Below are positions 8,946-24,842 of a stretch of DNA of 35,216 nt, one piece after another. This DNA comes from Glutinoglossum americanum (lineage: Eukaryota; Ascomycota; Geoglossomycetes; Geoglossales; Geoglossaceae): positions 1 to 35,216 of the forward strand of contig JAGHQL010000226.1 in NCBI GenBank assembly GCA_020080175.1, in the 5' to 3' direction. Under the pieces are notes generated by a model. It worked only from the letters and a program-made list of their open reading frames with translations. It made no database searches and was not told the DNA's origin. Positions within the stretch are counted from its first letter, which is position 1. Each line of letters starts with the position of its first letter. The translations under genes were made by a program, and so were the position numbers.

Positions 8946-10472
8946 AAGACGGAAGAGTTCACAAGTGTGCGTCTGTCTGTAAGTTCAACACCGTGAACTT
9001 CCCAGCCATCTCTTTAAATACCATTGAGCTCAACCAAACACCCAATCCGGAAGTGTAGAGCATCAATGGGACAATAGCCAACCCCCCCATTGTGTTCAGC
9101 TCGGACACTGCCTGTGGGAAGAATAAGAAAAGAGTGGGTCTAGTGCGTAGCTCAATACCAGCACCATCGTGAACTCGGCTCGGACACCCTCAACCAGAAG
9201 AACTAGGAGAAGAGAAGAGCGTGCCAAGCAAGTCACCCACCACGTAATGACGGATTATCCACCCGCGACTTCCTCCCAACAGAAGCAGATGCATCCACGC
9301 AGCTGTACCAACAGTTCCGTAAAATATAGTCATCTCTTCTAGCGTGTGTATATATACTACCCGACTCAGCAGAGCTGATTGCCCGAATTGGTCAATTCGC
9401 CAAGTCAAGCAATCAGCTCTGCTGAGTACGAAGGACGGGAGAGATCAGAGGGCTAAACACGCTAAGGTTCACCAACCATGGGGTGTTAAGGCCAGCAAGT
9501 GAATGATAGATCCATGACATCACGGCTCCACTCATCGTTGGTGAAGCACCTCAAAATTGAACTTACTTTTCTGCTCCACTATCCACCACTCGGGACAAAG
9601 GCGGCGGCCATTATCTATTATTCTCATATGGCCATAACACACCCACCCACAGAACCACACACACACTGTCCGAACGCAACCTAGGCCGTTAGTCGCCCTC
9701 CCCAGCCCAACGATGAGACCCGCCTTCCTCTACAAAAGGCACCCCGCGGCTTTACAAAGGAAGAGGAGAAGCGCAAGGATAGGGAAGCAGAAGGACTTCT
9801 GAGTAATCCGGTGGGTAACCTAGATGGGAGGCCTGAAGAGAAGGGCCGAGAAGGGCGAAGGAGATTTAAGGCCGGGCTGGTATCGTAGCGGAGAGATTGG
9901 CGTTTACCAGCAACAGGGATAATGCCCGTCTGATGCGGTAGAAGCCCTCGCTCTCAATGCATGCGGGATATATCTTCCCATTTTCACCTCACCACGCCAC
10001 GAGTACAAGTCGTCAAAAACCAAGTAAAGTAATTGGAGATAAACTGTGCCATCCCCCGTCTCGCAACACGGGACGGGGAATAAGGAGCTATGAAAAAAAA
10101 AAAAAGGCACATGAAAGGGCAAATCGTGGTGATCATAGGTATCTATCAAGAACTGAACCTCTCCCCCACAGCTAGTTACTCCCTCGCCCCCCATCATAGG
10201 TCCCCCCGCCTCTTCACGAAAACGAAGGCAGTAAGCCGGTGGAGTTTTCATCCCTGGCTCCTGTGTAAGGCGGACGTGTGGTGAACGTAAGCGATAACAC
10301 CCTTTGACGATATTTATTTTATTTTAAGGAAAAGCGAATAATGATGTAGAAAAACAGCAACCGATCTACCCCTGCTCCGGAAAGATACAAAGGTGGAAGC
10401 CGAAAAAGAGAAACGCAACGACTAACCGCTATCAGACCCATCGTCACTTTCGAACATCCACCCCTCTTTTCC
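8946..10472. other. Intergenic region, about 1.5 kb
   Basis: No recognisable gene on either strand. The one clear structure is the inverted repeat at 9364-9427, listed separately. Short CA-rich runs occur near 9640-9665 and an A run near 10094-10105. The right end (about 10260-10472) is probably 3' untranslated region of the VIP1 gene. Confidence 0.45.
9364..9427. repeat. Perfect 19-bp inverted repeat (hairpin) with inner inverted repeat
   Basis: ACTCAGCAGAGCTGATTGC at 9364-9382 has its exact reverse complement at 9409-9427. Inside the 26-nt loop, CGAATTG (9384-9390) pairs with CAATTCG (9393-9399). No coding frame explains it. Confidence 0.85.
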
Positions 10473-10582
10473 TTACGTCTTAGCATCTCCTCCATAGGTA
10501 GGAGCAGCACCACCAGCAGCATAAGGCCCAGGGCCGGTAGCATAGGAGGGAGGAGGAGCGCTCTGATCAGAATACTCTTGTG
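10473..10582 (-). CDS. Possible alternative last exon of VIP1
   Basis: On the minus strand a branch-like ACTGAC and acceptor CCGCCAG precede a 110-nt segment. It reads QEYSDQSAPPPSYATGPGP then a Gly/Ala/Tyr-rich end, and stops at TAA 10475-10473. A donor at 10713 (GTGCGA) in the last cysteine repeat of VIP1 gives the matching phase. Splicing 10713-10583 would replace the last residues CAK by this Pro/Tyr-rich tail. The coding character of the segment is suggestive, but the donor is weak. It could also be plain 3' untranslated region. Confidence 0.35.
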
Positions 10583-10702
10583 CTGGCGGATTAAATAGAC
10601 GCGCGTCAGTGGGGAAAACAACACACAGAAACAATGAGAGCGATCCTAATAAAATTACAGTTTTCCACCGATCCCTATACGATTGCTTTTCGATCTCCCC
10701 CT

Positions 10703-11928
10703 TTATTTCGCACAATTGCATGTCCCCGGTGAACAAGTACAAGCGGCAGCATTGCCGCCGCAGTTGCAAGTACTCTCCCCGGGCTTCTGCTCCCCCGCAT
10801 GTCCCCCACCCGTAGCTTTGGGGCAATTACTGCACGCGCATGAGCTCGGCTCGCAGGCACAAATAGCAGCATTGCCACCGCAGCTGCACGTCGTCTTCGC
10901 AGTGCCCTCCACGGGTTTGACATCCACTTTAGGACAATCGGAACACCCGCACCTGCCAGGGGGGCAGGTGCATTGCTCACTTATGGAACCGCACTTACAG
11001 GTTACTTTTTCGGTCTCCAATGGAGTAGAAGCGGGCTCAGCGTAGCCGGTGGCCTCGGATTTACGGAGGTTGGCGAGGCGACGGGCTTCATTGTGGATGT
11101 CCACGGCTTCCTTCTCGCGCTCGACGTAGAATGTCCTTACGCGTTGGCCAGTGGGGGTGCCGAGAGCTCTCTCAAAGTAATGGCTTAAGCTACGCCACCC
11201 GGCGTTAGCTTTATCGGTGACGCCGTAGGTAGTGTCCATCGATCTAGCTCTATCGGTTGCGTGATATTTACTCTCGAAGTTGTGTAGGACAGAGGTGAAT
11301 CTATGGGAGAAACCATGTTTCTTATCCAGCTCGATAGCCTTCTGAACAGCCTGGTCCCCGACGACGTAACCGTGGGCGAGGTACTCGGCGATGATGCGAG
11401 AACGAGGCTTGTCTTCTTGGTCGAGGTGCTCGCCGTTCTTATAGGTCTGTTCGGTTGCAGTTTGCCCGGGAGCAATTTCGTCTAGGCCGGGAGCGCCAGA
11501 GACTTGGACTGAGGAAGGTCCGAGCTGGGCTAGGAGTTGTTAGCAGTGAGGCTACTAGCATAACCAAGGCACAAGGCTCACTGTTATCAAGGAGAAGCGC
11601 TGTCTTAGCAGCACTGTAGCGAGTTAGCATGCGTGTTCCAGAAACTCCAAATCCTGGGCCTCATCGGCCGGTAAGCATTTCCTAGGAGAACTCACGTGTC
11701 CTTCTCGAATGTTACAGTAGCAGACTTTGTGCTCTCCGGGTCATTCGAAACAGGAGTAACGGAGAGCGAAGTTATTTTCCCGCTAGCAATGCAGGACGAC
11801 GTGGTTAGAATACACGCTACCGAATATTCTAGACATCAGAGGCCATACCAGAAACTAAAGAAGTCTCTCACTTCTTGTTCGCTGGTTTGGTGCGAAATAT
11901 TCTTGACGTGGACGGTAGTAGACGACAT
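10703..11928 (-). CDS. vip1: VIP1-type RRM protein with metallothionein-like C-terminal repeats
   Basis: Four exons on the minus strand: 11928-11849, 11782-11696, 11613-11582 and 11529-10703, giving 341 residues. All introns are GT-AG and in frame. The RRM fold (about residues 1-80) reads STTVHVKNIS... SATVTFEKDTAAKTALLLDN. A helical region follows with EDKPRSRIIAEYLAHGYVVG and YHATDRARSMDTTYGVTDKA, typical of fungal VIP1 (S. pombe vip1), a cytoplasmic RNA-binding-type protein of unclear role. From about residue 240 come three cysteine repeats of the form CxC-x6-CxC-x4-CxC-x2-C (7, 7 and 6 Cys), spaced by linkers of about 20 residues. This is close to the seven-Cys plan of the metallothionein encoded at 24594. 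I believe some other filamentous fungi have a similar tail. Metal binding is inferred, not shown. Confidence 0.88.
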
Positions 11929-24021: not shown

Positions 24022-24063
24022 GCAGCAGCAGCAGCAGCAGCAGCAGCAGCGGCAGCAGCAGCA
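24022..24063 (+). repeat. GCA trinucleotide repeat
   Basis: Fourteen trinucleotide units of GCA with one GCG-like interruption (GCGGCA near 24049-24054). It is open in several frames (poly-Gln, poly-Ala or poly-Leu) but no gene model uses it. Confidence 0.85.
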
Positions 24064-24345: not shown

Positions 24346-24420
24346 TTGTGTGTGTGCGAGCATGTGTGTGTGTGAGTGTGTGTGAGTGTGTGTGAGTGTG
24401 TGTGAGTGTGTGTGAGCGAG
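24346..24420 (+). repeat. GT-rich minisatellite, 10-bp unit TGTGAGTGTG
   Basis: Several near-perfect copies of a TGTGAGTGTG unit run up to 24420 and end 8 bp before the TATA box of the first metallothionein gene. Confidence 0.85.
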
Positions 24421-24593: not shown

Positions 24594-24842
24594 ATGGGTG
24601 ACTGTGGATGCTCCGGTGCTAGCACCTGCAACTGTGGCGCATCTTGCTCTTGCGCTTCCTGCGGGGTACGTTTTTAATGCTTCTCGACTACATAGGAACC
24701 CCGCCCTCTCTCCCTCTTCTCCTCCTCTCCTCCTCTCCTACTCCCCAACCCCTTGCCTCCTTGCTCTCCCCATTCGTTCCCTCTTCCTAGACGTCGTGAT
24801 AAATACAAAATGCTCAGCACCACCATTTTTTCACAGAAGTAA
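24594..24842 (+). CDS. Copper-type metallothionein 1, very small protein
   Basis: Exon 1 (24594-24665) encodes 24 residues beginning MGDCGCSGAS and ending CASCG, then donor GTACGT. The best acceptor is TTTTTTCACAG at 24836, giving a last coding exon of six bases (24837-24842, AAG TAA) and a 25-residue protein ending in Lys. The seven cysteines follow CxC-x5-CxC-x3-CxC-x2-C, which I recall as the pattern of the N. crassa copper metallothionein, also about 25 residues and ending in Lys. Role by family: cytosolic binding of Cu(I) as a thiolate cluster, normally copper-induced. An alternative acceptor at 24790 would end the protein GTS instead. The intron of 171 nt is long for such a gene. Confidence 0.85.

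Follow-up and report, generated by a model that had tools for sequence, protein, structure and literature searches.

The DNA analysed here, referred to as the window, comprises positions 1-35,216 (35,216 nucleotides, forward strand) of contig JAGHQL010000226.1 from Glutinoglossum americanum (assembly GCA_020080175.1). Its minus strand carries a gene for an RRM-fold protein which, following the name given in an earlier note on this DNA, we take to be a VIP1 and call VIP1-like. The four-exon spliced model of this gene (Table 1) would encode 341 amino acids and has introns of 66, 82 and 52 nt as calculated from the model coordinates; the exon borders are putative and represent our own reading of the splice consensus. 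Exon 4 lies in a stop-to-stop frame of 278 amino acids (10703-11539, minus strand) which runs continuously from the body of the protein into a Cys-rich tail. A frame of 130 amino acids lies opposite this tail (10653-11045, plus strand); it probably does no more than mirror the repeated codons of the tail frame and was disregarded. Between positions 9500 and 12700 no RNA family reached the Rfam gathering threshold.

About 13.6 kb from the tail, the same contig carries a gene for a free metallothionein at 24594, which the earlier note had described and which is indeed present with the Cys spacing CxC-x5-CxC-x3-CxC-x2-C, i.e. that of the Neurospora crassa metallothionein (PMC4755600) and of metallothionein family 8. 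Its final Lys codon and stop (24837-24842) would follow a putative intron, giving a peptide of 25-26 amino acids. Simple repeats of the CAG type and the GTGTGTGA type are found just upstream of it, at 24022-24063 and at about 24350-24420.

Searches of the whole genome with the VIP1-like body and with the Cys tail returned one match each, in both cases the locus itself, and judging from these matches the RRM-fold protein is apparently single-copy. The tail search did not recover the free metallothionein at 24594, which indicates a low sensitivity for short Cys-rich peptides, and for this reason no count of metallothioneins is claimed.

Table 1. Features of the VIP1-like gene and of the free metallothionein gene in the window
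Feature	Positions	Strand	Description	Basis
Exon 1	11849..11928	-	start codon, beginning of the RRM (RNP2 VHVKNI)	spliced model, RRM_1 match
Exon 2	11696..11782	-	middle of the RRM (RNP1-equivalent KSATVTF)	spliced model, alignment
Exon 3	11582..11613	-	end of the RRM	spliced model
Exon 4	10703..11529	-	body and entire Cys-rich tail; stop 10703-10705	open frame, spliced model
Module 1, CKCGSISEQCTCPPGRCGCSDCPK	10928..10999	-	7 Cys	Cys-pattern scan
Module 2, CSCGGNAAICACEPSSCACSNCPK	10817..10888	-	7 Cys	Cys-pattern scan
Module 3, CNCGGNAAACTCSPGTCNCAK	10706..10768	-	6 Cys, runs to the stop	Cys-pattern scan
GTAAGT hexamer, consensus 5' splice site	10993..10998	-	inside the first CxC (TGT AAG TGC); possible tail-skipping donor	
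Possible alternative last exon (exon 5), ...QEYSDQSAPPPSYATGPGPYAAGGAAPTYGGDAKT	10473..10582	-	acceptor CCGCCAG, preceded by CTGAC at a distance of about 24 nt	
Free Neurospora-type metallothionein, coding exon 1, MGDCGCSGASTCNCGASCSCASCG	24594..24665	+	comparison gene, outside the fusion	

Residues 7-70 of the VIP1-like protein match the Pfam family RRM_1 (PF00076) with 38.2 bits against a cut-off of 20.7, so that the domain can be assigned to the RRM fold. Nup35_RRM_2 stayed below its cut-off (24.3 versus 27 bits), three further RNA-binding-type models were weaker still, and outside the RRM no Pfam family was found. The gene is absent from the 85 matches of a six-frame RRM_1 scan of its own genome, presumably because the RRM is split over three exons. 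Among solved structures, 21 distinct sequences matched the whole protein at E values up to 1, nearly all of them over the RRM; the best match came from a poly(A)-binding protein, with E 1.8e-4. Weak alignments of two beta-ureidopropionase chains to residues 174-293 (E 0.12 and 0.18) were taken as chance matches.

Canonical RNA-binding RRMs carry aromatic residues at position 2 of RNP2 and at positions 3 and 5 of RNP1. When aligned to the RRMs of poly(A)-binding proteins, the VIP1-like RRM has all three of these positions replaced, by His in RNP2 and by Ser and Thr in the RNP1 region. As the RNP aromatics are replaced, RNA binding through the classical RRM surface is unlikely.

The body that follows is helical in a low-confidence model of the exon-4 part, which was predicted with no alignment and reached a mean pLDDT of only 39.5. 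Its amphipathic periodicity at 98-100 degrees does not exceed that of shuffled sequences (67% as high), and larger moments occur at other angles, e.g. 108 degrees, the shuffle comparison having covered 98-100 degrees. The idea of lipid-binding 11-mers in the body was dropped.

The tail consists of three modules of the type CxC-x6-CxC-x4-CxC, which start at residues 244, 281 and 321. Apart from Cys 27, all Cys of the protein (20 of 21) lie in the tail, at 244-265, 281-302 and 321-339, and each of these 20 fits the module pattern. Modules 1 and 2 end in x2-C-P-K, module 3 stops after CNCAK and has no seventh Cys. A single His is the only Phe, Tyr, Trp or His residue of the tail. Among 200,000 shuffles of the 102-residue tail, 459 contained at least one module and none contained three or more; at the composition of the tail, three modules almost never form by chance. 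The earlier note had described three CxC-array repeats with 7, 7 and 6 Cys following the RRM, and the open frame, the spliced model and the shuffles together confirm this description.

In the module pairs 1-2 and 2-3, the first and second positions of the Cys codons differ in 0 of 24 cases, those of the remaining codons in 26 of 52 (Fisher p 3.9e-6), a test that leans towards this outcome because the modules were picked and aligned by their Cys and Cys conservation between them is partly a matter of construction; the third positions of the same Cys codons differ in 5 of 12 cases. For the pair 1-3 the corresponding numbers are 0/12 for positions 1 and 2 of the Cys codons, 12/26 for other codons and 3/6 for Cys third positions. 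The codon pattern between the modules is that expected of a translated array under selection for Cys. In total the tail has a codon score of -11.8 bits, below that of coding sequence (the body scores +0.22 bits per codon), probably because Cys codons are rare.

Neither the Cys tail nor the free metallothionein matches any Pfam family. Metallothionein family 8 is defined by the pattern X2-[CXC]-X5-[CXC]-X3-[CXC]-X2-C-X3, which makes up the whole of a short peptide (PMC4755600). The order CxC, CxC, CxC, x2, C is common to this Neurospora type, including the copy at 24594, and to the tail modules; the tail differs from it in that the first two spacers are each longer by one residue (x6/x4 instead of x5/x3), and by forming an end piece of about 98-102 residues instead of a free peptide. 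With these spacers, and as part of a 341-residue protein, the tail falls outside family 8.

The tail can also be compared with the modular metallothioneins CnMT1 and CnMT2 of Cryptococcus neoformans and TmMT of Tremella mesenterica, which, like the tail, consist of tandem 7-Cys boxes with spacers, three boxes in the case of CnMT1 (PMC4755600). Tandem boxes with three CxC pairs and a final Cys, as in this class, are present in full in modules 1 and 2, module 3 having six Cys; 6-Cys variants of the box, which resemble module 3, are also known from TmMT (PMC4755600). In the TmMT box, CXCX3CSCPPGXCXCAXCP (PMC4755600), the second spacer is x4 as in the tail modules and the second half corresponds to CxC-PPG-x-CxC-x2-C-P of module 1, whereas the first spacer is x3; with x6 at this place the tail comes closer to the Neurospora type (x5). 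The Pro doublet that follows the second CxC in the CnMT and TmMT boxes is confined to module 1 in the tail. Small residues between the Cys and a Pro after the last Cys are shared by the CnMT and TmMT boxes and the tail, the Pro being present in modules 1 and 2 and missing from the end of module 3. However, the CnMTs and TmMT are free metallothioneins, and the array described here forms the end of a larger polypeptide, following RRM and body in one frame. The modules themselves belong to a known kind, and the protein that hosts them is unusual.

Misannotation of metallothionein genes is reported to be frequent (PMC4755600), and one might suspect that a metallothionein gene has been fused to VIP1 by the assembly or by the gene model. 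This explanation is hardly credible, as the join lies within a single open frame that contains neither a stop nor a run of N. Moreover, apart from its start the protein has a single Met, at residue 164, so that a separate, short metallothionein starting from an ATG at the tail is not to be found.

The 7-Cys boxes of the CnMTs have been reported to form Cu5 clusters, and four Cu(I) have been assumed for a 6-Cys box (PMC4755600). The tail would most likely bind Cu(I) in thiolate clusters and, by this rule, could hold about 14 ions (5 + 5 + 4). The Cys may on the other hand serve a different purpose, i.e. form a Zn(II)-stabilised interaction module or a redox-sensitive disulfide switch, or donate metal to a partner of VIP1. 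Such a purpose would agree with the Zn and Cd complexes that recombinant TmMT forms as well (PMC4755600) and with the attachment of the tail to a body that may bind partners, but a 7-Cys box rich in CxC pairs is the pattern that fungal Cu-thioneins show (PMC4755600), and we regard these alternatives, taken together, as unlikely. Metal binding by the tail is a safer prediction than any single role for it.

All this presupposes that the tail is retained in the mature transcript. The GTAAGT hexamer inside the first CxC is the best donor-like hexamer of exon 4 (with weights assumed from general knowledge), followed by GTGAGC at 10980, and both are in frame with the acceptor at 10583, which has a branch-like CTGAC upstream. 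Splicing from GTAAGT to this acceptor would remove the tail and yield a Cys-poor protein with a Pro/Gly/Ala-rich end containing PPSY, so that the Cys tail would belong to a minor isoform or to read-through. The sequence of exon 5 looks coding: of 4854 overlapping stop-free windows, drawn from five stretches taken as noncoding, 55 have a codon score as high. However, the in-frame fit is a weak argument, as 20 GT sites of exon 4 share it, and the intron would measure 416 nt as opposed to the 66, 82 and 52 nt of the other three. Synonymous shuffles of the tail contain a GTAAGT in 17% of cases, and the 2 strong donors observed are no excess over the 1.7 expected, so the hexamer may be a chance occurrence. 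A putative donor GTAATT at 10658 (score 1.46) would instead give an intron of typical size (76 nt) beyond the stop, making exon 5 untranslated sequence and the acceptor part of an intron in the 3'-UTR. Another putative donor, GTGCGA at 10713, would drop the last Cys only. Finally, the Cys array is intact across three diverged modules, which suggests that it is usually translated. We consider it improbable that such splicing, alternative or constitutive, usually removes the tail. That the gene gives rise to two proteins through splicing at the codons of the first CxC, one form with a metal-storing tail and another whose Pro/Gly/Ala tail would offer PPSY to partners with WW domains, is very improbable; if it were true, an abundant housekeeping protein would be coupled to metal status.

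We take Vip1 of Schizosaccharomyces pombe to be the orthologue of the VIP1-like protein, presumably with the same arrangement of a single RRM at the N-terminus and a helical body; in contrast to the protein described here, it has, to our knowledge, no Cys tail. An N-terminal RRM fold and a helical body, the latter binding protein partners, are also features of the plant BPA1 family (binding partner of ACD11), which differs from the VIP1-like protein in that, as far as we know, it has no Cys tail either.

The earlier note had proposed that the fusion of an RNA-binding-type domain with a metal-binding array suggests a metal-responsive RNA regulator or a metal store tethered to RNA. The fusion as such stands, since an RRM fold is joined to an array with a predicted capacity of about 14 Cu(I), the RNA regulator much less so. 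In such a regulator the metal loading of the tail would alter RNA binding by the RRM, and there is indeed both a real RRM_1 match and a real Cys array in one protein. In addition, S. pombe Vip1 emerged from a screen for TER1 RNA levels (PMC7397868), and a Vip1 protein of Histoplasma is listed in a section devoted to putatively RNA-associated proteins (PMC6437275). All three canonical RNP aromatics are replaced, however, and S. pombe Vip1, going by the context of the passage, is among the classical RNA-binding proteins that were negative in poly(A)+ RNA capture (PMC7397868) and, with 139,690 copies, outnumbers mRNA (PMC3482660). The regulator is thus quite improbable, and sensing through RNA binding would be unlikely. 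The vip1 gene of S. pombe is among those tabulated in an Atf1/Pcr1 data set (PMC8960879). VIP1 of Paracoccidioides is described as a nuclear protein which was found in cell-wall and vesicle proteomes, too (PMC10672198), and neither this passage nor that on Histoplasma (PMC6437275) mentions metals.

The replaced RNP aromatics, together with the abundance of S. pombe Vip1 and its negative result in poly(A)+ capture, led us to prefer a constitutive, tethered metal buffer, which fits better than an RNA regulator and has, in our estimate, about an even chance of being correct. According to this proposal the last exon of an RRM-fold gene would add three metallothionein modules to a scaffold with an RRM fold, and the resulting Cu-thionein array would constitutively buffer or store metal inside the cell, being tethered to the VIP1 body and hence to whatever this body sits on. 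A high abundance of the protein would be expected by analogy with S. pombe Vip1, the presumed orthologue.

The promoters of vip1 and of the free metallothionein were scanned for seven consensus motifs assumed from general knowledge, i.e. 14 tests in total. None of the copper-type motifs was clearly above shuffles upstream of either gene (highest 2 versus 0.97, with 24% of shuffles as high). The CRE-like motif TGACGT occurs twice upstream of the vip1 start on the minus strand, at -304 and -249; with 0.43 copies expected and 7% of shuffles reaching this number, the finding is unremarkable among 14 tests.

Further relatives were searched for in collections of viral and prokaryotic contigs, which contain no fungi by design, so that the absence of VIP1 relatives from them says little. 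Among viral contigs the whole protein, the RRM and a degenerate RRM peptide gave 7, 13 and 0 pattern-matching stretches, and among prokaryote genome contigs the tail and the body gave 106 and 35; none of these was confirmed. A scan of the viral contigs for the Cys spacing returned 54 loci, largely low-complexity Cys runs or repeats of the C-P-C-N type, and nothing recognisably VIP1-like was found in the peptides around them. Nine of these loci (L014, L018, L027, L037, L042, L045 and L049; also L019 and L023) contain long heptad repeats of the type C-P/T-C-N/D-C-N-F/Y in Cys-rich open frames with no visible relation to the VIP1 tail.

In the titles and abstract openings of the open-access literature, no fusion of an RRM with a metallothionein was found among the matches listed. 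Such a fusion may already be known to annotators, as the literature covered was mostly outside subscription journals and as, according to the earlier note, similar Cys tails occur in some other filamentous fungi.

Fungal metallothioneins have mostly been studied as free peptides. A metallothionein domain in an RRM-fold protein, and an abundant one if it resembles S. pombe Vip1, would provide the cell with a constitutive and positioned store of copper or zinc, and such a built-in store could escape both screens for copper induction and counts of metallothioneins. In addition, the metallothionein tail would offer a biochemical handle on Vip1, a protein called uncharacterized in the quantification study of S. 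pombe (PMC3482660).
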